Program-made: the position numbers and the translations under genes
Notes under the pieces: generated by a model
What the model saw: only the letters and a program-made list of their open reading frames with translations
What the model was told of the DNA's origin: nothing
The model's database searches: none
Source: Apostichopus japonicus
Lineage: Eukaryota; Echinodermata; Holothuroidea; Aspidochirotida; Stichopodidae
Assembly (NCBI RefSeq): GCF_037975245.1
Contig: NC_092577.1
Coordinates: 4,051,501-4,115,500 of the forward strand
Reading direction: 5' to 3'
Length of the DNA: 64,000 nt
Part shown: positions 1,366-53,231 of the stretch, in pieces
Numbering within the stretch: the first letter of the stretch is position 1
Layout of the letters: every line of letters starts with the position of its first letter

Positions 1366-1616
1366 CAATGATTGCACACAAATGCAATACATACAAATAT
1401 AAAGATATGTATGTAATACATATAACTGTCCATACAAATAATAATACACACATACAGTAAATACAATAAAATTGTCCAAGTACAAACATACAATCTATTA
1501 CACACAAATACATACAAATACTGTACATACAAATATAAAGACATACAAATACACTTACATACAAATATAAAGACATACAAATACACTTACATACAAATAT
1601 AAAGATACTCAAATGC
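1366..1616. repeat. Imperfect ACATACAAATATAAAG tandem repeat
   Basis: Short AT-rich units with TACATACAAATATAAAGA are repeated many times right up to the 5' edge of the LINE. Open frames on the other strand come only from this repetition. Confidence 0.8.
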
Positions 1617-1639
1617 AACAAATGTAAATTTTTCATCAA

Positions 1640-3840
1640 AACAATGTTACATAAATACACCTTGGATCGACATGCACCTGTAAAGATAAAAACTCTTCGA
1701 GTAAGACCATCCAGTCCTTGGTTCTCTGATGAAATCCGCTCAGCACGAAAAATTCGTCGCCAGCATGAAAGAAAATGGATGAATTCACGGCTCGAGGTTG
1801 ACCACCAAGAGTATTGCAAGCAACGGAATATTGTCAACAACTTGATCCGACATGCCAAGATAGAATATTTCTCTGCTCAAGTAGATTTGTGCACAGGTGA
1901 TCAAAAGAAACTATTTCAAATAGTAAACAGTCTTCTACATAGATCAAGAAACACTGTTCTTCCAACATCTGTCTCAAACAATGCTCTTGCAAATAACTTT
2001 TCAGACTTTTTTCTTCAGAAAATTGAAACTATACGTAAATCATTTATTACTGACTCTCTGGAAGATTCTTCTGAATTTCAGAAGGAAGAAAAACTCATTT
2101 CAAAATTATCTTTATTTCGTCTTACAAATACTCAAGAAGTTAATAATGTTATTATGAATTCACCTTCAAAGTCATGTGAACTTGACCCATTACCTACATA
2201 CTTGCTTAAGAAATGTATAACTGTGATTGTGCCATATATATCTATTATCATTAACAAATCCATTCAACGAGGTGTTTTTCCTGATAGCCTTAAGGTTGCA
2301 CATATTCGGCCACTTCTTAAGAAAGATGGCTTAGATAAAGAAAGTTTTAAGAATTACAGACCAGTGGCAAACCTAAAATTCTTGGGGAAAACTATTGAAC
2401 GCATTATTTCTAGTCGCATTACTGATCATATGAATACCAATGATGTATATGATCCATTTCAATCTGCTTATAGGGCTAACCATGGTATTGAGACTGCTCT
2501 ACTTCGAGTAAGCAGTGATATACTTTCTGAAATGGATAATGGTAGAATAGTGGCTATGGTCCTTTTAGACTTGAGTGCCGCATTCGACACTGTGGACCAT
2601 GAAATTCTGCTTTCGCGTTCGAATAGTTTCGTGGGTATTGATGCTGTTGCTCTGGAGTGGTGCAACTCTTACTTAAACAGACGACCTCAATATGTTTGTA
2701 TTGGGGATGAATTATCCAATCCTGTATACATGGATTATTCAGTTCCACAGGGTTCAGTCCTTGGACCTCAGTGGTTCCCTATTTATACACTTCCAATTCG
2801 TAGAATTTTGGCGAAGCACAATATTTCATATCACATTTATGCAGACGATACCCAGATTTACATTGATTTCAGTCCTTCTCAAGATGAGAGTGTTAAAGCC
2901 ATCACATGCCTTGAGAGTTGCATCAATGATATCCGTTTGTGGATGAGACGTAATTTTTTGAAGCTTAATGAAGAAAAAACTGAGTTTTTGCTTTTTGGTT
3001 CTTGTCATCAGCTTGCTAAAATTAATATTCCATTCATATCAATTGGTAATGTTCAGGTTCGCCCTTCCACTCATGCGCGTAATCTTGGTGTAATTTTTGA
3101 TTCCAATATGTCTATGAAACGCCACATTTCCAAAATAACAAGTTCTGCTGCATTTCATCTCAGAGGCATCTACAAATTACGAAACTATTTAAATGATAAG
3201 GCAACTGAACAAATTGTACATTCTTTTATCACTTCAAGGTTGGATATGGGCAATTCCTTACTCCTCGGTCTTCCACATGAACAGATTCACAGACTCCAAT
3301 TAATCCAAAACTCAGCTGCACGTATTGTAACTCATTCTCATAAGCATTGTCATATCCACCCTGTCTTAAAACACTTGCACTGGCTACCTGTAAAATATCG
3401 TATTATGTATAAAATTCTCCTTATTGTTTATAAATCACTTAAAGGACATGGTCCAATGTATATTTCTGACTTATTACATATGTATGTCCCCTCTCGTAAT
3501 CTAAGATCCAGCTCTCAATTTTTATTATCTGAAATTAAGTCCAAACATTCTTGGGGGGATAGGTCATTTATTGTTTCTGCCCCTCGCTTATGGAACCAAC
3601 TTCCCTTAAAAATCAGAAAAACATCTACTCTCTCTAACTTTAAGAAGAGCATAAAATCACACTTAATGACGAAAGCTTTTATATGATCTTATACCATTAA
3701 GTTTCTCTTCTGTCATTGTTTTGTATTTTTCTGTATTATTTGTATCATTTCTCATTGTCATTTGCGCCATGAACATTCTTTGAGTGGTGTGTGCGCATTA
3801 TAAGTCTTATTATTATTATTATTATTATTATTATCATCAT
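1640..3840 (+). mobile_element. CR1/L2-like LINE, 5'-truncated, with ATT-repeat tail
   Basis: An open frame at 1644-3686 (680 residues) covers the region after the endonuclease (DRHAPVKIKTLRVRPSSPWF), then a full reverse transcriptase: NYRPVANLKFLGKTIERI, QSAYRANHGIETALLRV, LLDLSAAFDTVDH, SVPQGSVLGP, the catalytic IYADDTQIY, FLKLNEEKTEFLLFG and LGVIFDSNMSMKRHI, plus the C-terminal domain to HWLPVKYRI. The endonuclease is missing, so the insert cannot move by itself. It ends in (ATT)n at ~3809-3834. It lies upstream of the first KYNU exon seen here, so probably within a KYNU intron. Clade by general resemblance only. Confidence 0.9.
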
Positions 3841-36443: not shown

Positions 36444-37990
36444 CTACTCTTCGCAAATTGTATTTCCCTGTTTTTCATCAGCGAGAGTGTTGTCATTTCC
36501 TTTCACATTATTTTCAAGTAGTTTTTTGTTTTTCTTCAAATGGCCTGTTTGTGTGAAGGAATTTTTGCATTGATATGGTTTATCACTAGAATGAATTCTT
36601 TCATGTGTAGTCAGATTACCTGACTGATTGAAAGACTTACCACAAGTTTTGCATTGATATGGTTTTTCACCAGAATGGATTCTTTCATGTGAAAGCAGAT
36701 GACATGACTGATTGAAAGACTTACCACAGGTTTTGCATTGATATGGTTTATCACCAGAATGAATTCTTTCATGTGTAAGCAGACTACATGACTGATTGAA
36801 AGACTTACCACAGGTTTTGCATTGATATGGTTTATCACCAGAATGAATTCTTTCATGTGTAATCAGATTACTTAACACTTTGAAAGACTTACCACAGGTT
36901 TTGCATTGATATGGTTTTTCACCAGAATGAATTCTTTCATGTGCAATCAGATGACTTGACTGATTGAAAGACTTACCACAGGTTTTGCATTGATATGGTT
37001 TATCACCAGAATGAATTCTTTCATGTGTAAGCAGACTACATGACTGATTGAAAGACTTACCACAGGTTTTGCATTGATACGGTTTATCACCAGAATGAAT
37101 TCTTTCATGTGTAATCAGATTACTTAACACTTTGAAAGACTTACCACAGGTTTTGCATTGATATGGTTTATCACCAGAATGAATTCTTTCATGTGCAATC
37201 AGATGACTTGACTGATTGAAAGACTTACCACAGGTTTTGCATTGATATGGTTTATCACCAGAATGAATTCTTTCATGTGTAATCAGATGACTTGACCCTC
37301 TGAAAGACTTACCACAGGTTTTACACTGATGAGTTTTATCACATGGTTTAAATTGACGATTTGATATTTCATTTTGTGTACATCGTTCACTTTGCCCTAT
37401 ACTATTGCAGTCTTTTAGAGAAGTTTCAATTCTTTTACGACAAAATCCACTCTTCATGAATTCTGTTCTTGTGTCTTCAATGTGATGGTCCTGCAATGAG
37501 TCTCTGTCTTTCAAAGGTGTTTTCTGAAGTTGATAGTTCATCCCTCTGTTTTTTACTTTGATGTGTGGCTCTTCTATACGACCATCTGTATTCTTATTAT
37601 GTTCAATGCCAGCTTTAGAGATTATCATCTGTGTTGCTACTTTCTGATATGTTTGCCCAGATTCTGACCAAATTTTATTACTATTTTCGATCGGTCTATC
37701 TAAGCTGTCAAGAGTTTTCTTTGTTTCACTGCTGTGGATATGATCCAAAGAACTGGTTGACGCATCGTTACCTGCTCCAAAGTCATGGACAGAGTTCTGT
37801 CTCCCAATGAAAACTTTACTTGGGATGCTGCTGTTAGTAGACATTATACCTTTATTTGAGCCTTGTACTGAGGTGGGTCTCGGGAAGAAAATTGGCTTCC
37901 CATGTGTATACTTCAGATGCTTCAGCAAGTATATCTGAATGGTGAATAGACGCCCACAATCCTCACAGCCGAAACTTGAAGTTCCTGGCA
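36444..37990 (-). CDS. PRDM9: PRDM9 last exon: solitary finger, linker, nine-finger array
   Basis: Begins in phase 1 right after TTTCAG. A solitary finger [17 protein letters not shown] with H392 matches the isolated PRDM9 finger after SET (same C-x2-C-x12-H-x4-H spacing). A ~190-residue low-complexity linker follows, then nine fingers of 28 residues each with backbone QCKTCGKSF and linker HSGDKPY or HSGEKPY. The tenth, [17 protein letters not shown], has lost four residues including its second cysteine and both histidines. Stop TAG at 36444-36446. Confidence 0.96.
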
Positions 37991-40900
37991 CTGAAAGTAG
38001 AAGTGGTACACTTTACAGTTATTCAGGGAGAAGGCAGGGGAGGAGGATGCTTTTGGTATTAAAAAAAAATGTTTGAAAGTTACTCCTTCCAATTGTATAT
38101 GCTCACGACAACAATTTATACCTCAACAACAGAGGAAATAATTAAGCACCCAATCAAGGTATGTATGTATGGGAAGTTGTCCATTTGCCTCTATATCTTT
38201 TCAAAGCACAGAAATTTGTTATCCTCATAATCTTCATTACTATATGGCAGAACTGTTACAAAAAATAGATTAAAGTCTATGTTTTGAGGTAGTACAATTT
38301 AACCAAGAAGATCTAAAAAGAAGAAAATTTCTTTAGCATTTAACTTACTTGTTTGGTGAAACCTTTTAGACTCATCTGGAAAGATTCTTTCTATCCCCAG
38401 ATCTCTGGCATAATCTTTTCCATAGTACACTAAAAGCTCAGTGCCACATGGAATTGGTTTGTACGAGCGGTAATATATTTGTCCAAGATATTGAAAAGCA
38501 ACAAGATTTTGTTCCCTGTCATCTCTTGCACAGTTGACAAACCTCATCCAGTTTGATTTGGTCTCATTCTTTGCATCGATGTAATGAGACGGCTTACCAC
38601 TTGAACATATCTGTCAAACAGTTGAGAGGACATGAAAGAAAATGGTTTATGTACCATAGTACTATAGAAATAAACATTATCCAGACTGACCAAAAGATTG
38701 AAAACTAATCAGGGCATAAAAAATTAAGCTTGCCAATAATTGTAAATTAGTTTAATTTAAAGCATAAACAATTTTCAATAAAGTTACTACCAATGGTCAT
38801 CGACATTGGCCCCCAATATGCTAGGAAGTCAATGTATGGTCACCCATGCTCCAACTTACTTCAAGAAGTATTCGACTGCCACCCTCACAGTATTTATCCC
38901 CACTGGGACACTGAGTGGTCTCAGTTAAAATTTCTCAATAGTTATGGCAGTACTGGTAACTTGAAGATACAGACCACAAGAATGTAGACTTTCAAAATAT
39001 TTAGCAAGTTTTAGCATGCTAAAACTTGGGGCCTATACTGATGATCTTTAACATTCTAATGTGAAAAGGTACTTTGTGTTCACTTTTCACCAATATTTCA
39101 ACAATATTAAATAGGTGTCAACTGCATTTCACATGGAGTTACTGGATTTGTACTTTTCGGGGTTTAAATTTTGGTCACAACTCCAAGACTTTACTGCAGT
39201 GATGCAAACCATATTGTTAGTCAATGTCAGCTTAGGAGATAACTGCTACAATTTGATCTCTGAGAGTGGGAGGAGATGGAGGGATGACATCATGTGGGTT
39301 ATTAAGTGTTGAACTTCTGAGAAACCATATCAAGATTAAACTCCCATGTTGCCATTGCAATTTCACATAATGGGCAAATCCAGGTTGTGATTAAAGGGAC
39401 ACTTACCTCCCAGGCGTAACCACTACCGAAAGCTTCCTCTTGTTTGACAACTTCTCCCTTATATGGTCCAAACCGCACACCTTTAGGGAAAGATTTATCG
39501 GCAAATACACCAAGTCCAGCACCTACAATTGGTGTCTCTTTGATGGACAGTCCCTGTGGGAGGCTGTTCTTTGCTCTGTGTCTGCTTCGCTGTGATACTG
39601 GTTTATCTTCGATGATAATTAGCGGATGCTTGTGGCACGAAGATTCGTTAAATTCCTGACAATCTTCACAGTCTATATAAACAATGGTCAAAGTAACATA
39701 AAATGCATTCCTCATCAATATGAAAACTTTTGTGGGTTTCCAGTTACATCAATTGGGTAAATAAAACTTTAAATGGATACTCCAGTGGCAGACAATATAA
39801 TACAATTAGTGTAGAGAAGAGAAGCATATCCTTCACTGTTGAATTAATATCCATGTCAATGTCTTATATCTAACAATCCATATGGGTTGCTTGAATAGAA
39901 GCTACTTTTGACAGCTAAAACTTTCCTTTTGCAAGGACCTGGACTATAGTAAGTGGGGTCTGTATTGCCAACGGATGTGCTCACTCCAGATGGTGGCAGA
40001 CGGCTGGGCCTGGCAGTTCAGAGAGCAGCCCAGCACAAACAGTATTTTATATGGCCACCAGACAGTACTTTTGATGATTAATTTAACAACTTTTGCCATT
40101 ACCAAAATATGGGAGAATACTTGGCACAGAAGTTAGTCCTGAATAGGAACAAGAAGGGAACACCCACCCCTTATACCCATCCCCCAGGATGTGGATCCCA
40201 CTACAGCACAAACCCAGCCGGCATTCAAAGCACAGCCCTGAATGCCCTCACACATTTTGAATGTTTCTTTGAATGTTGACGTTCTTTTGGTGTTCTATAA
40301 CTTGTCTGTAAGAATCACATTTGTCCTCAGATGAGGAAAAATTAGACCATTATACATTTTAACTAAAACAGACTCTTTTCAGCTTGCTTGCCATCATGAT
40401 ATCAATATAGATCATATGTTGTCACGCCCACTCACAAAGTTTCGATAAAAAAATGTTTTGTTTTTTTTAAAGGTTGTAAATGATGAAATAAATGTTTTAA
40501 AGGCTTCAAACATAAAAATAAAGGTTTTTAAAGGCCCAAAATGAAGTTAATTTGTAAGATAATTACCATCTATGCCCATTTTTACATCATCTGTGTCCTT
40601 TATTAAAAATACCTGACTTACATAACTGTTGGTTTGTGAGTCTGATTTGTATCACTGCATGTATCATGCCTGGCTGTCCAAAAAACTTAATAATTACCAA
40701 TGGTTAGCATGACTAAATACAATATTTCTACTCTTAACCAAGTCCTAAAAAATATACATATATATTTTTTTTGTCACTTAAAGTAAAAAAAAGTTTTAAA
40801 GGTTTTTAGAGTATTTTGCTTAAATAAAGGTATTTTAATAGTTTTGCTGGGAGATTAAGTGATAATTAAGTTATGGGGGCCATCTGGCTCACAGCCGCTG

Positions 40901-43900
40901 CTTAATTTTACCCTTGAAATTGAATCCTGAAATACATCCATGAAAATGTTACATATAACCGATTACACAATTCTAATGTCAAAATAAGAAAGCCTCAATT
41001 TGTTGTTTTACAACTACTAGAATAATGCAGTTAAAATATAATACAAAGTCACTAGCTGTAAGTCTTCCTTTGAAGTTGTCCTCAAATTAAGTGGTTCTAC
41101 TTACAAATGAAATGGTCATCATCTGGCACAGTTTCCTCCTTGTAGCAAACAGAGGTTTGATTCCTCCTTGGATAGTAACGTTTAGGCTCTTTACCAGATG
41201 CTTCCACATCATCTATCAAGGAAATGATAAACTGGTTTTCTAAAAGTTTCATACTAGTTAGGCATTTCTACATTACAAAAATAGTCAATGATTATTGGGT
41301 TTGGATTCTGCTATATATAATAAATTATACTGGATGGTTTTTTATTAGCTTTTGTACATTTTCACATTATTTTGAAACACCCTCATTATCTGACATTTTG
41401 ATGTTGGAATAATAAATTGATTGTCAATATGACTGAAACCAGCGACAAACAATACATAACAATAACAGAGTTTTTACTGCAATAATAATATAATGACATT
41501 TCAAAATTTCATTAAAGACATCCAACTTTTCTTAACATTTTATTACTTTTAGACACAACTCAAATCTGATTTTCAAGAAGTATTGAACAGGGATGTAAGT
41601 GCAGCCCAAAAAAAAAACCGGAAAAATATTCGGAGACCCCAGGTGAATGCCGTCCTAACACATCCTACTCCTAGCTCTGACTACTTACACACTATCGTTA
41701 CTGTATGTTAGGCTAGCTTAGAAGTATTAGCGCTAACACATCCTACCCCTAGTTCTTACTACTTACACACTATCGTTATGTTAGGCTAGCTCAAAGTTAC
41801 GAATACGTCGCAGCGAACTACGGAATAAAAAACAGTCTCACATTCGAATGCGATCACAAATATCGACTTTCATATGCGTATCCCGTAGATTTCCGCCGCT
41901 CAAAAATATCACAAGCGTTAATTCCAAAACTTATGTCGAGCACCAGCACTTAAGAAGATATTAATTAGCAGTCCAATCAACATGAATTAGGCAAGGTTTT
42001 TCAACGACAGAAATGAGCTATAGCGATTTGAAGTTCGCACGTACGCAACGATATTCACATGGCACAATGTTGTACAGCCCAATGCGATGATGCGAAACTG
42101 GAAATGGTATTTTGAGTGATCGATGAGTGAAAATTGAAGTTAGCTTGCTGCAACGTTCCAGGCATTTTTGCCGCGTTGTGTCTTTGATATTCGAACAATT
42201 TTGTGGAACTTTATTGGAATTAAAAAAAAACGGATTTCCGTAAAAATACGGAAGACTTATTGGAATTAAAAAAAACACCGGATTTCCGTAAAAATACGGA
42301 AGACTTACATCCCTGATTGAAGGTTAAATCTGTGAGATCACACCCTAATGGCAGTCTTTTGAGGTTTTGAAAAGGATTTAGTTCAATGGCTGCAAGCTTG
42401 CAATATTCATTTTTTCCATGCAAAACATCCATGTGGTGAACTAACAACAAAATAATTTAACTCACCCAAAAAAATGGAAGTGCTCTTCCAAATGGCATAT
42501 ATTTTCATATCATTAATAACACAAAAACATGAGAAAAGATGATAAATTAACATAGTTCAAGCCACATTTATCGTTAATCAATACATGATAACTACATCTA
42601 GTATAACAATAGGCTCTGGATACAGCTATCACTGCGTCTTCTCTGAGTGTCAAGAAAAAATGTGAATGAAATTAAAGGTGACTTGAAAGCCAAAAATGAT
42701 AAGTTTTCAACATTACCTTTACTTTTCTTTCTTTTCTTCCCATTTAGTTTGGTCTGTTTGTCAACTCCATCAGGGTCTTTAATGGTAGACTCTTCACAAT
42801 CCCCAAGCAGAGGCATACAATGCTATATGGACAAAGTAATTAAAGGTAGTCAGTATAGGCCCCATATTATAGCACGCTATACTTGCTAGGAGCTTTCAGA
42901 AAGGACTTTCCTGGAGGTCTTTACTCTCCAAATTGTTCTCAGGTGTTTTAAGGAACGCACAAGAAGACTGAATGTCCCAGTGAGGACAATTTACTTGAAG
43001 GTTGTTATCAAACAGTTTAAAAATTTTGACCAAAGGTGACCATATTTGAATATCTAGCATATTTGGGCCCAAATGCAGTATACTCTTAATATAGTGATTG
43101 GATGACCGTCCCAGTATATAAATAAATGTCATACTGATAGCCTTTCTTCAAATTGACTGATGTGGTATATATTGATACATGTATGTATGTATGTATGCGT
43201 GTATGTATGTATGTATGTATATGTGATCTTCCTGCAAGCAGGAACTTGCGAAAGAAGCCATGGAGGCTTGTAGACTCGCAAGCTGACCGAAGCCAATCTC
43301 TCGGCACACATCCATTTAACGTCCATGTCAGGAAGTTGTTATTGAACAACACCCTTGCCAGACGACACACATTGCTGTCGGCGGGGAATCGAACCGGGGA
43401 TCTCATGACTGGGAGACGCCGGCGTTAACCACTAGGCTATACACTCCGCCCTACATATGTTGTTCAATGTCAGATCTAGGATTTTCCAACTAGGGAAGGG
43501 AGGGGAAGGAAAGGGGAGGGGCTGTGTAATAATTAGGGCTCACAGTATGTGTAGCAGTTTTGAAGGAGGCTATGAATATTTCTTACAAAATATTATTGTT
43601 CCTGTGTACAAAACTTGCTATGTACATCTTTGCACTTGTACAGCAATCTGACCTTTTAGAATAGCATATTCGTTGCTATATGCATAGGCGTACGAGGCGG
43701 GGGACAGACTGCTCCCCCCTCAAATTTCCAGAGGACAAGAAATTCGGGCAAAAGTCCTGAAAAATTTGGGCAGCCTAAGAGGGAAAAAAATATTTATATA
43801 TATATATATATATATATAAATATGCAGTAGTTTGCCCGAATCTTTTTCAAATTTTTGCCCGAAAATTCTGTGGAAAGCGTTTTATGTTATTTGTTTTGTG

Positions 43901-46821
43901 ACATTAATATTAATATAGGCCTAATGATTTTCTTTAGTTAGCATCATGTTGGCCCAATATTTCCGTGTAACACCACTGTAAGCGCAGCTTATCCACGCTT
44001 TTTGCACTATCAAAAATTTTCTAACTATTCAACTGTATACCTTGACATCCCCGACATGAGTGTATATAAGAAACGTTTTATTGTTCATGGATGGTGGGGG
44101 GGGGTGCCTACAAGCCTAGAAGTACAGGTTTATCATATTCCTTTTTATTTTATATACTTTTTTTGTGAGACAAATTGCAATTTCACCCAACACAGCGACA
44201 TTATCCCGCATACGTGTCGTTGAACAATGTATGTTTTTCTGGAGGTACAGTAGCTGAGTACTGTAATAAAATAATAAATACGATAACTAAAAAGGAGCTT
44301 AAAAAATATACTGTCCTATTTTTCCACTTCAAAGTGATGTTACCAGTTTTTTCTTCTTCTAATTTATCAAATTTTTGGGGAAGTGTAAATTTCTAAAATG
44401 TGAGATTATAAAATAAAGAATGTTTAGATGCAACTTGCAAGGCCTCAGAAGTGCCATTTCCGGCAATCTGAGAGGCATTTTTGGCCAAAAAATTTCTTGT
44501 ACGCTACGCGCCAACTGATGGTGGTGCTCCGCTTAGATAGTGTCATGGGAACTTTCGGGCACAAAAGATTCTGCCCCCCCAAACTAAAATGGTCCCCTAC
44601 GCCTATATGCAGTTCCAATAATTTATTCCCTATGAAAAGATCAGAGCCATGAGGTAAATATCAATATTAAATGCATAACCGACTGTCTTGTTATGCTTGC
44701 CAAAGGCCTAGTTGTGGGTGTGTGTACAAGGGGTTTGTTTCTCAAAATAAAACAAAGTTGCATCTGTCGGACACAAGCAGTTTGAAGATTTTGCATCCAG
44801 GACACAGATTCCTGCGTTGATGAAAATACTCAGAGCATGACACTTTCAGTCAAGAATTCTCAATTAAGACAAACAGGAAGCTACAAAATAGCCAAATGAA
44901 AAAGAGAAAAGGTTATCAATGATGATTAGTGAAAATTAGATGAAAGTGAAAAAAGGCTATGCATCCAGAACCAAGCAATAACAAAGAGTGGGTTTGTTGA
45001 CACAATGGGGTTGATACAGTTCTATAAAAGGAGTTTATCAAAATATATAATCATTACACTTACCTGAGGTTGATTGTTGCAAACAGTTTGGTTAGTTGAT
45101 AGCTGCAGTTTGCTCTTAGATCTCCTTCCTGCAGTACAAATAATTGTAAGCAATAATACAATTAAGAAGCATCAATTACATTAACACTACATAAATAATA
45201 AATACTAAAAAAAAAACACTGGATGTATATTTCCCCTGTTTGTGAAACTTGTGGAAAGGAAGGAATAAATTAAAACAATTTAAACAGACTGAGAAAAATA
45301 ACTGAAAAATTAAATTAATTATGGATGTAATGAGAAGTTAATGGATTTTTTTTTACTTTTGTAATGAATATTCAAATTGGATTATTCCAGCTTAAAAGGA
45401 TAATAGATTAAAACATACAAAAATGATTACCCTAAGTTTGGTAACATAAAAAGGATACTACTTTAAAAAGTAGATTATAACAAGTATTTTAATACTGACT
45501 AATCTGAGTAGTTTTATATGAATGCATTTTTGAGCAATAAATATTTTAAAAACTTGTGTTCAAAATTTACCAAATGGAACCAATAAGGACAGTTCTTTCT
45601 TATTAAAAAAATTAAGTAAAATATTTTATTCAGGGTTGTTTCTATAGTTTGATCAAGCTCAATCTTTTTATTTGCTGATATTGTATATCAGATGTGCTAC
45701 TGTATTTATTCTATTTATTTTTGAGCCATATGATTATGTTTCATATTATTTTATTAAAGATTAAACAAAAATAATGAACCTTTGCCTTATTCAAAGTAAC
45801 ACAAACCTGGTTTTATTACAACTTTCTTAGTGGGTCGCCAGTCATCATCATTAATATCATCATCACTGTCATCCCGTGATCTTTTTCTGGTCTGTCTCCT
45901 CTTCTGAGTCATAAATTCTGGCATTGACACAGTCAGTCCTTGAAGAGAGCAAAAATATTTGTTTGCCTCATTAGCATAGCTATTGTTTTCTTGTTACTAA
46001 AAACTGAAAAGTAACAATGGAAGGAATTTATAATTAACTTTGATTATGTAATTTCAAGAAGAAAACATGTAAACAGCAAACAACTATTGGCTGAAAATTT
46101 GTCTCCTCTTCTGAGTCATAAAATCTGGCATTGACACAGTCCTTGAAGAGAACAAAAATATTTGTTTGCCTCATTAGCATAGCTATTGTTTTCTTGTTAC
46201 TAAAAACTGAAAAGTAACAATGGAAGGAATTTATAATTAACTTTGATGATGTAATTTCAAAGAGAAAACAAATATTACAGCATACAACTATGGGCTGAAA
46301 ATTTGTTAGGTTCACCAGATTTCATGACTAAAAATTTATACTTTGACTGGGTCTGATCATTTTCAAAAAATGTACTCATTGAATTCTATGAGTCAAGCAG
46401 CAAAGTTTGTCCCCTCTTCACTCATTTCATTTCTTTATTCCAGTATAAATTTACAGAGAAATTTATAAATAGGATAAAAATATAACAATATACAGAACAT
46501 CAAAATACAGGTTAAGACATATAAAAGTTTATGAGACTAAGTTAATAGTGAAAACATAAAAAGCGTTACAAAAGTTATATTTGGAAACATATACATGTAC
46601 ATATTACACACCAATGCACATAGTTTTTTTTATCAGTTAAGCTAATTTTAGAATTTATGCATCTTCTTCTTACCAATCTGAACCATCATTTCATAGTTAC
46701 GCTTCATGTTCTGTAACCGGAGCTTTTCATAACTGGATAATTCAGCCCAACCTTGAGCTGTGAAGAATTGCCGTAGGTCCCCATACTCTTTATCTTCTTT
46801 GGATGACATGCTCATAGTCAT
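36444..46821 (-). CDS. PRDM9: PRDM9/Meisetz orthologue: KRAB-like, SSXRD, PR/SET and C2H2 array
   Basis: In vertebrates PRDM9 is a meiotic H3K4/H3K36 methyltransferase whose zinc fingers choose recombination hotspots. Coding exons in gene order: 46674-46821, 45807-45938, 45064-45128, 42717-42822, 41105-41212, 39407-39672, 38349-38610, 36444-37990. Phases agree at all seven junctions and the sum is 2634 nt, 877 residues plus stop (human 894). Domains: KRAB-like 1-50; basic/acidic linker 50-93; SSXRD ~160-186; zinc knuckle C188, C191, C199, H202 with the same spacing as human; PR/SET ~220-350, with tyrosines Y257, Y322 and Y338 at the positions of human Y276, Y341 and Y357; solitary finger C371, C374, H387, H392; nine C2H2 fingers ~583-831; one broken finger. 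Start chosen at the first ATG after a candidate 3' splice site (exon body to 46834). Any 5' UTR exon is further upstream and unplaced. A generic KRAB-ZNF is excluded by the SSXRD-SET combination. Confidence 0.95.
36591..37331 (-). repeat. PRDM9: 84-bp coding minisatellite (PRDM9 finger array)
   Basis: Nine 84-bp units, one finger each. Residues at helix positions -1, 3 and 6 by finger: G/H/T, Q/H/A, V/N/T, Q/S/T, Q/H/A, V/N/T, Q/S/T, Q/H/S, Q/N/T. Fingers 2-4 and 5-7 form the same ordered triplet. The 252 bases at 36769-37020 and 37021-37272 differ by only two substitutions by eye. Confidence 0.95.
38349..38610 (-). CDS. PRDM9: PRDM9 second half of PR/SET
   Basis: Reads [40 protein letters not shown] and [11 protein letters not shown] in succession, near-identical in pattern to vertebrate PRDM9. 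It holds Y322 (IYYR) and Y338 (VYYG), the equivalents of human Y341 and Y357, and the NxxxCARDD loop that binds the methyl donor. Confidence 0.95.
39407..39672 (-). CDS. PRDM9: PRDM9 zinc knuckle and first half of PR/SET
   Basis: Starts [16 protein letters not shown] (C-x2-C-x7-C-x2-H, as in human), then [24 protein letters not shown] and FGPYKGE, ending GSGYAWE at the donor GTAAGT. The pre-SET knuckle and the N-terminal SET strands are here. Y257 (FGPY) corresponds to human Y276. Confidence 0.95.
39975..40260. repeat. Dispersed repeat in a PRDM9 intron
   Basis: Shares GCAGCCCAGC, TTTGATGATTAATTTAACAA, GGAGAATACTTG and CCCCCAGGAT with 58200-58385 plus 58725-58830. Class unknown. Confidence 0.7.
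41105..41212 (-). CDS. PRDM9: PRDM9 SSXRD exon
   Basis: Reads [19 protein letters not shown], then VPDDDHFI, matching the human SSXRD pattern RKMYSLRERKGHAYKE...DDDYLY. SSXRD is a repression/nuclear-interaction motif found in SSX and PRDM7/9 proteins. Phase 1 at both ends; donor GTAAG. Confidence 0.9.
42717..42822 (-). CDS. PRDM9: PRDM9 linker exon (106 nt)
   Basis: Reads [19 protein letters not shown], then a lysine-rich end ([10 protein letters not shown]), a possible nuclear localisation signal. Donor GTAATG; the acceptor CATATAG has almost no pyrimidine tract, and a TTAA-flanked transposon begins 17 bases upstream of it. Skipping would shift the frame. Confidence 0.78.
42840..43089. mobile_element. 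TTAA-flanked MITE beside a PRDM9 splice site
   Basis: Second copy of the 24661-24914 family, TTAA at 42840-42843 and 43086-43089. Its edge is 17 bases from the 3' splice site of PRDM9 exon 42717-42822, so that exon's branch point must be in or beside it. Confidence 0.85.
43225..43449 (-). mobile_element. tRNA-derived SINE (antisense) in a PRDM9 intron
   Basis: On the minus strand: TATAGCCTAGTGGTTAACGC (A box) and CCCCGGTTCGATTCCCCGCC (B box), then an unrelated body ending before (GTAT)n at 43185-43220. A tRNA gene is unlikely because the acceptor stem does not pair. Confidence 0.8.
43552..43650. repeat. GTAGCAGTTTTGAAGG dispersed repeat
   Basis: One of three related ~100-bp copies, the others at 52001-52096 and 61997-62104. 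They share GCAGTTTTGAAGG near the start, a TGTGTACAAAA-like middle and GCTATG or GTTATGCATC near the end. Confidence 0.65.
43685..44605. mobile_element. TIR element with TAGGCGTACG ends
   Basis: Begins TAGGCGTACG, ends CCTACGCCTA, bordered by TATGCA on each side (43679-43684 and 44606-44611). Contains an AT microsatellite (43792-43820) and, at 44425-44545, the module with GTGCCATTTCCGGC, TTCTTGTACGCTACGCGCC and GGTGGTGCTCCGCTTAGATA. Confidence 0.72.
45064..45128 (-). CDS. PRDM9: PRDM9 short linker exon (65 nt)
   Basis: Phase 1 to phase 0, reading [21 protein letters not shown] in two parts; borders TGCAG and GTAAGTG are strong. No domain. Supported by phase agreement with both neighbours. 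Confidence 0.75.
45807..45938 (-). CDS. PRDM9: PRDM9 linker exon after KRAB
   Basis: Reads [20 protein letters not shown], then an acidic [12 protein letters not shown] and RPTKKVV. It parallels human GLRATRPAFMCHRRQ and EDSDEEWTPR. The donor is GTTTGT, weaker than usual. The first 46 nt of this exon are duplicated upstream in the intron (46100-46146). Confidence 0.88.
45893..46304. repeat. 207-bp tandem duplication including a PRDM9 exon edge
   Basis: 45893-46099 and 46100-46304 are close copies. The second has the first 46 nt of exon 45807-45938 with its acceptor, minus four bases (GACT), so the duplicated piece is out of frame. Confidence 0.85.
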
Positions 46822-46834
46822 ATGTTGACTAATT
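46674..46834 (-). CDS. PRDM9: PRDM9 exon with KRAB-like box (coding from 46821)
   Basis: Reads [20 protein letters not shown], then [20 protein letters not shown] and RNYEMMVQI, aligning with the KRAB-like region of vertebrate PRDM9 ([21 protein letters not shown]). Donor GTAAGA at 46673 downward, acceptor TTATAG at 46835-46840. Two more in-frame ATGs follow within six codons, so the exact start is uncertain by a few residues. Confidence 0.88.
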
Positions 46835-52096: not shown

Positions 52097-52292
52097 AAAA
52101 TCTTGTGAGATTTTTCCATCGAATTACAGTGTATACAGAAATGACCGCTCTACCAAGGGCGGAGGTGTTTTTGTTTCTACAGAAGGGAAAATACCTTCAT
52201 GTGAGCAATTAGACCTAATCGCGGACTGTAGGGTTGAATAGGCTAGGATAAGACTTCAGGGAAAGAAAAATCTCTATGTTGGGGCTTTTTAT

Positions 52293-53231
52293 ATGCCCCA
52301 TAGGTCTCTTCGTGACATCCAAAGTTTGAATTCCTCTCTTACCAAACTCTCTGATGGGCATTTCAAGAACATTATTCTCTCGGGAGATTTCAACTGCCAT
52401 GATATTGATTGGCATAACAACTGTCTCAGACCCAATGCCCAGGATAGGGAGGTCCAGCAAGCTCTTTTAGATCTTGCTAATAATCATGAACTGGTCCAAG
52501 TTCACGACCTGCCAACTAGAGGTGCAAGTAGACTAGATCTTGTGTTCACCAACAATCCTACACTGATCAAGTCCTCTATGAATATCCCAGGTATATCTGA
52601 CCATGACATCCTGGTCACCGACTCTGTCTTGAAGCCTACTTACGTCAAACAGAAGCGTAGGAAGGTCTTTGTTTATTCTAAAGCTAACTGGGCTGAGATC
52701 AAAATAGATGCTAATTCCATTAGTACTCACATAACTAAGCTTTATAATGATGGTACTGACATTGTGGAACTCTGGGAGACATTTAAAACTTCTATTTTGC
52801 AGTCTATTGCAAAACATGTCCCTTCTAAGACCAGTAAACCAAAAGGTCAATTGCCCTGGCTCAACCGCAACTTGAGAAGATTGCTCAGACAAAAGCAAAA
52901 CCTTTATAATCAAGCAAAACTAACAAATGATTGGTCTAGGTATAAAACGCACCAAAAGCTTTGCAAAGTGCAAATGAAACAGGCACAGCAGGACTATATC
53001 AATAATACGATAATAGATGGAATTGCAAACAAGAATAACAAACCTTTCTGGAAATATATAAAATCTAAAAGAAGTGACAATATTGGGTCATCTCCCCTTA
53101 AACAAAATGGTAACCTCGTTTGTGAAGCCTCTAGGAAGGCCAAAATATTACTAAACCAATTTTCTTCAGTCTTCACTACAGAGACCCGTGGAGATGCGAC
53201 CTATGATCCTTTGAGGAACTTAACTTCGTAA
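52293..53231 (+). pseudogene. LINE endonuclease C-terminal half and linker fragment
   Basis: Part of the broken LINE. It has the APE-type endonuclease motifs GDFNCHDIDW and SDHDI, then a basic, coiled linker before the RT. Ends at a stop at 53229-53231 where the intact frame would go on. Confidence 0.85.

Follow-up and report, generated by a model that had tools for sequence, protein, structure and literature searches.

A predicted complete PRDM9-type gene with a diversifying zinc-finger array in a sea-cucumber genome

Whether PRDM9 places meiotic breaks in animals other than vertebrates is the question raised by a gene on the minus strand of C17:4051501-4115500, a window of 64,000 bases that is the whole stretch of sea-cucumber DNA analysed here and belongs to an assembly of 671.6 Mb in 35 contigs. 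When Baker et al. wrote, direct evidence for a role of PRDM9 in recombination came from placental mammals only (PMC5519329). The predicted PRDM9-type gene has eight exons and seven introns, all of them GT-AG and with consistent phases, and encodes 877 residues plus a stop, the sole stop of its frame being the one at its end. The reading that we favour, with a probability of roughly 0.68, is that of a working PRDM9 with the full ancestral architecture, predicted from its sequence to direct meiotic breaks. What is new in this analysis is the diversifying finger array.

The nine tandem fingers of this array are encoded by 84-base units with a mean identity of 92%. The helix codons −2, −1, 1, 2, 3, 5 and 6 varied in amino acid in seven of seven cases and synonymously in none, while among the remaining 21 finger codons two varied in amino acid and four synonymously (hypergeometric P 3e-5 for amino-acid variation in helix versus other codons, Fisher P 0.02 for replacement versus silent sites), both P values serving as guides only because the repeats are not independent. 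Among the nine fingers, the pairwise proportions of nonsynonymous and synonymous differences (pN/pS) were 0.30/0.00 for the helix and 0.01/0.08 for the framework. Positions −1, 2, 3 and 6 accounted for a share of 0.53 of the amino-acid diversity by our own version of the statistic, a value within the range listed by Baker et al. for complete orthologues, including coelacanth (0.545) and human (0.687) (PMC5519329). When 24 arrays of the same genome were ranked by the concentration of diversity, the window array came first, with 87% of its diversity in the helix (next array, 55%) and 53% at the four contact positions (next array, 41%). There were 191 matches, of which 30 loci were fetched for this ranking; two with fewer than five tandem fingers and four repeats of counted arrays were left out, and the rank applies to these loci rather than to the whole genome, since they were the most similar to the window array and not a random sample. 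A block of three fingers occurs twice within the array, and this duplication would be the mark of a recent unequal exchange. Elsewhere in the genome, dense clusters of long C2H2 arrays were seen on C17 at 1.38-1.77 Mb, about 2.3 Mb from the PRDM9-type gene, and on C1 at 19.76-19.94 Mb.

The closest of 70 protein matches, and the nearest named record, was P0001, the Prdm9 of Apostichopus japonicus, a model of 621 residues that starts inside the intron before exon 6 and therefore lacks KRAB and SSXRD. From the knuckle to the array, 365 of 395 residues were identical to those of the window gene, the 30 differences lying mostly in the linker; identity was 97% in the SET part and 32 of 41 residues in the tail, which contains the same degenerate last finger. 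The window genome would thus be that of a sea cucumber close to Apostichopus. In contrast, the P0001 array has six fingers, and no 8-residue helix was shared in either direction (0 of 9 window helices in P0001, 0 of 6 P0001 helices in the window). A decaying or mis-assembled copy, with an array that reflects relaxed constraint, would be compatible with the degenerate tenth finger and with the incomplete exon 2 copy inside intron 1, but the frame is open with every splice site intact, the framework of the nine fingers is nearly invariant (pN 0.01), the SET part is almost unchanged in P0001 and the degenerate finger is present in that record too, so that we regard decay as extremely improbable.

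The order of modules in the protein is a KRAB-related box, an acidic DDDWRP motif, an SSXRD-like motif, a zinc knuckle, a PR/SET domain and a solitary finger, followed by a linker of about 190 residues, the nine tandem 28-residue C2H2 fingers and a degenerate tenth one. Pfam recognized the PR domain (E-value 2.7e-45), the SET domain (E-value 6.5e-11) and the C2H2 fingers, the last far beyond the cut-off, and both the zinc knuckle and the solitary finger that flank SET aligned with the PRDM9 structure 4ijd. All three tyrosines aligned with human Y276, Y341 and Y357, which serve as catalytic markers in Baker et al. (PMC5519329), were retained. Human and mouse PRDM9 share with the window gene the module order, knuckle, SET domain, catalytic tyrosines and solitary finger, and their array is also diversifying (PMC2779102, PMC5519329).

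The N-terminal modules were compared profile to profile, using the window gene and 22 invertebrate matches against six mammalian PRDM9 records (pangolin and two bats). The KRAB piece (residues 1-58) matched mammalian PRDM9 at 98.8% (E-value 6.2e-17, score 77.3), the best of 40 shuffled-column controls scoring 12.7 (1.0%). The SSXRD piece together with the start of the zinc knuckle reached 97.0% (score 42.3, best control 14.1), and the whole N terminus, aligned from the rows that could be cut, reached 99.9%, with 9 of 31 chosen matches left out as their cut pattern did not fit. In addition, BLAST aligned the N terminus of the pangolin PRDM9 record P0033 with the window gene at 38% identity over residues 13-85. 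By profile and BLAST comparison, the predicted protein thus carries a KRAB-related box, and an SSXRD module is probably present, although it is the least certain of the modules and that of the mammalian PRDM9 proteins compared is weakly alike to it. The initial annotation had described, without naming a strand, eight exons and 877 codons with all modules in order in one frame; our rebuilt minus-strand model reproduced the exons and codons, and the KRAB-related box, knuckle, PR/SET, solitary finger and array were found as described, while the SSXRD-like motif was weak when taken alone.

To place the gene within its family, we used structure matches and a SET tree. Three PRDM9 chains headed the PDB matches, with 170 to 164 bits; PRDM11 followed at 106 bits and PRDM14 at 97. 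The tree contained 46 rows, namely 40 of the 70 matches, the window gene, two human chains and three paralogues from its own genome, P0062 having been removed by a length filter. The window gene fell into a group with a hemichordate and 12 further echinoderm rows (84/86, unstarred), PRDM11 was found on a long branch within the vertebrate group (100/99), and PRDM14 with one own-genome paralogue fell outside PRDM7/9/11 (100/100). Because two further own-genome paralogues, on very long branches, fell among the bilaterian rows, the outgroup cannot be called clean. PRDM11 nests inside the vertebrate group, which makes the echinoderm genes co-orthologous to PRDM9, PRDM7 and PRDM11. The gene had been called a PRDM9 orthologue, a claim that a SET tree was expected to uphold or overturn; it fell within PRDM7/9/11, though on no starred branch, so that membership in this group stood and the term orthologue had to be widened to co-orthologue of the three vertebrate genes.

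Two other identities were considered and rejected. Vertebrate PRDM11 belongs to the same SET family, but both its lower SET score and the tree spoke against it, and the PRDM9-beta-like type, in which KRAB and SSXRD are lost and the fingers are slow, did not agree with a KRAB-related box that was matched, a probable SSXRD module and fingers that diversify. In a SET search of its own genome the window gene stood alone at high identity, the other seven matches reaching at most 49%, and no KRAB-less paralogue of the echinoid type turned up in this search. As the one PRDM9-type gene recovered from this genome, it is apparently single-copy.

Such KRAB-less copies occur in echinoids. Records P0026, P0028 and P0032 have a PRDM7/9/11-type SET domain, dispersed fingers and no KRAB or SSXRD match, and in P0028 the first catalytic tyrosine is missing (GFAW). 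Their helices were identical in 15 of 16 cases between Lytechinus and Strongylocentrotus; when Diadema was compared with either of the two, 10 of 16 were identical. In contrast, the other echinoid set (P0002, P0003, P0004 and P0013 against P0014 and P0006) shared no helix in eight of eight comparisons, P0013 and P0014 counting as complete by kinship only because their models lack a KRAB match; within Lytechinus, P0003 and P0002 shared one of seven helices, the solitary finger included. The tree distances of the SET domains were similar in the two sets for Lytechinus and Strongylocentrotus (about 0.06 versus 0.08) but not for Diadema and Lytechinus (about 0.16 versus 0.42), which makes the former pair the fairer control. 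The duplication itself was recovered in the SET tree at 87/75, unstarred. On these sequences, the echinoid duplication appears to repeat the contrast in finger evolution that Baker et al. described between complete and truncated vertebrate copies (PMC5519329), the KRAB-less paralogue apparently resembling teleost PRDM9-beta and the echinoid pair paralleling teleost PRDM9 alpha and beta.

If the gene works as a PRDM9, its finger array would bind a sequence motif in meiotic cells, where the SET domain would trimethylate histone H3 at lysines 4 and 36 (H3K4 and H3K36) beside the bound motif, and the KRAB-related and SSXRD-like parts may help to recruit the break machinery. A ZCWPW-type protein would read the double H3K4/H3K36 mark, and loss of motifs via gene conversion would drive the rapid turnover of the fingers. 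For the reader, the genome holds a candidate. Five zf-CW matches were found, two of them on contig C11 at 6.99 and 10.37 Mb, 3.4 Mb apart; these two stretches are 87-93% identical, and in each a PWWP start lies downstream of the CW in the same orientation. A CW and a PWWP domain together are the make-up of ZCWPW1 and ZCWPW2. The predicted gene with both domains, known from domain matches on two exons, is a candidate ZCWPW-type reader, and across vertebrates the presence of ZCWPW1/2 goes with that of PRDM9 (PMC8892340).

The fingers might instead change through the silencing of transposons, as in KRAB zinc-finger genes, with recombination unaffected. A KRAB-related box and a diversifying array do occur together here and retroelement pieces are present in the window, but human PRDM9 has a KRAB described as inactive in silencing (PMC8835667), and the window gene retains the tyrosines of SET that are linked to activating marks; we consider this explanation quite improbable.

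Several results weigh against a working PRDM9. In the SET tree, the window gene is absent from every starred set that comprises at most half of the rows. The rows used for the profile comparison of the KRAB and SSXRD pieces were excised by BLAST against the window gene, which biases that comparison toward agreement, and the SSXRD piece alone was weak (30.6%, score 15.7, against 12.5 and 7.1% for the best of 40 controls). No Pfam family was found at E-values up to 10 for the N terminus, the KRAB piece or the SSXRD piece, in searches in which the HMMER filters discard most matches above 0.1; likewise, a PDB search with the KRAB piece gave zero matches, one with the SSXRD piece gave the PRDM9 knuckle as its sole match (E-value 0.15-0.21), and NCBIfam found no family in residues 1-393. 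The failure of Pfam KRAB says little, because in the precomputed annotation the pangolin record P0033 carries Pfam SSXRD and likewise no Pfam KRAB, though its N terminus aligns. When the four contact residues alone were compared, two of the nine window fingers matched P0001, and the array of P0001, a single public record, could contain assembly errors. Raw helix pN was higher in the other 23 arrays of the genome (0.34-0.63, with helix pS of 0.26-0.84), because their units are older and more diverged, so that the window array is distinguished only by the concentration of its diversity and the lack of silent change. According to Oliver et al., moreover, tunicates show neither concerted evolution nor positive selection of the fingers (PMC2779102), and the finger pattern is thus not universal in invertebrates.

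A report on expression in a holothurian also counts on this side. In the sea cucumber Eupentacta, Ef-PRDM9 expression is low and peaks in regenerating gut, rising more than twofold at one stage (PMC6992634), which would fit a somatic transcription regulator of development or regeneration that kept the PRDM9 architecture and does not place recombination in echinoderms, as would the restriction of direct recombination evidence to placental mammals at the time of Baker et al. (PMC5519329). A somatic regulator with fixed targets should, however, keep its fingers, and here all seven helix positions change with silent change nil and no 8-residue helix is common to the window gene and the Apostichopus record; in addition, Oliver et al. 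mention a sea-urchin germ-line transcript (PMC2779102). Taking both sides into account, such a somatic role in place of break placement seems unlikely.

Among the 70 matches, PRDM9-like records extend to corals and a sponge, several echinoid species having more than one record each, and 29 carry all four modules by our thresholds (at least four C2H2 matches anywhere in the record, tandem or not, with E-values scaled to 70 proteins). Of these, 21 are invertebrate records from 17 species of echinoids, a crinoid, a hemichordate, bivalves, abalone, a nemertean and a coral: P0002-4, P0006, P0010, P0011, P0016-18, P0020-22, P0024, P0029, P0031, P0035, P0036, P0039, P0048, P0061 and the coral record P0030, which has a weaker KRAB match. 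That the complete gene is older than vertebrates was stated by Cavassim et al. in 2022 (PMC8892340), and Lorenz et al. (2022), citing Birtle and Ponting (2006), described a sea-urchin orthologue that bears the ancestral KRAB (PMC8835667). The window gene, a predicted complete PRDM9-type gene in an echinoderm, is therefore not the first invertebrate case; the initial annotation was right that the full design predates vertebrates, but this age is not new, being already in print and borne out by the 21 records. Oliver et al. (2009) had also reported concerted evolution of Prdm9 in sea anemone, snail and worm and, for the anemone, positive selection at −1, 3 and 6 (PMC2779102). Among the papers listed by our literature searches there was no invertebrate hotspot study.

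With somewhat better than even odds, sea cucumbers use PRDM9 actively to place their meiotic breaks, whole arrays turning over between close relatives, and the N-terminal modules and fast fingers are coupled outside vertebrates, independently in the echinoid duplication, where the fingers of the KRAB-less copy are frozen. If so, PRDM9-directed recombination, and not the gene alone, would predate the split between vertebrates and echinoderms. A complete and apparently single-copy gene, a diversifying array, a close relative with a recorded array that has no helix in common and a predicted gene with CW and PWWP domains together offer a concrete way of testing, in an invertebrate, how old PRDM9-directed recombination is.

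Table 1. Positions within the window of the predicted PRDM9-type gene and its parts
Feature	Position	Strand	Basis
Whole coding gene, 8 exons, 877 residues	36444..46821	-	GT-AG introns, phases, one terminal stop
Exon 1, start codon and KRAB-related box	46674..46821	-	Profile match to mammalian PRDM9 KRAB, 98.8%
Exon 2, with the last part of the KRAB-related region and the acidic motif DDDWRP (aligned pangolin record: DEEWTP)	45807..45938	-	
Exon 3, linker	45064..45128	-	Gene model
Exon 4, linker	42717..42822	-	Gene model
Exon 5, with SSXRD-like motif (residues about 158-183, bases 41115-41192)	41105..41212	-	
Exon 6, zinc knuckle and first half of PR/SET	39407..39672	-	Pfam, PDB match
Exon 7, second half of PR/SET	38349..38610	-	Pfam, PDB match
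Exon 8	36444..37990	-	Gene model
Solitary C2H2 finger, residues 371-392, in exon 8	37902..37967	-	PDB alignment
Nine tandem 84-base C2H2 fingers, in exon 8	36570..37325	-	
Three-finger block duplicated recently (fingers 2-4 and 5-7; 2 differences in 252 bases)	36738..37241	-	
Degenerate tenth finger, also in Apostichopus record P0001	36522..36569	-	

The first ATG of the gene lies at 46821, and position 46834, the limit given in the initial annotation, lies 13 bases upstream and directly follows an AG, which might serve as acceptor for an untranslated exon at the 5' end. Intron 1 contains a duplication in which bases 46100-46270 of the window are 97-98% identical to 45893-46067; it covers part of exon 2 and the intron upstream, and the gene model leaves this partial copy of exon 2 unused. 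The retroelement pieces in the window lie on the plus strand, at 1539-3686 (reverse transcriptase match) and 52242-53231 (endonuclease match).

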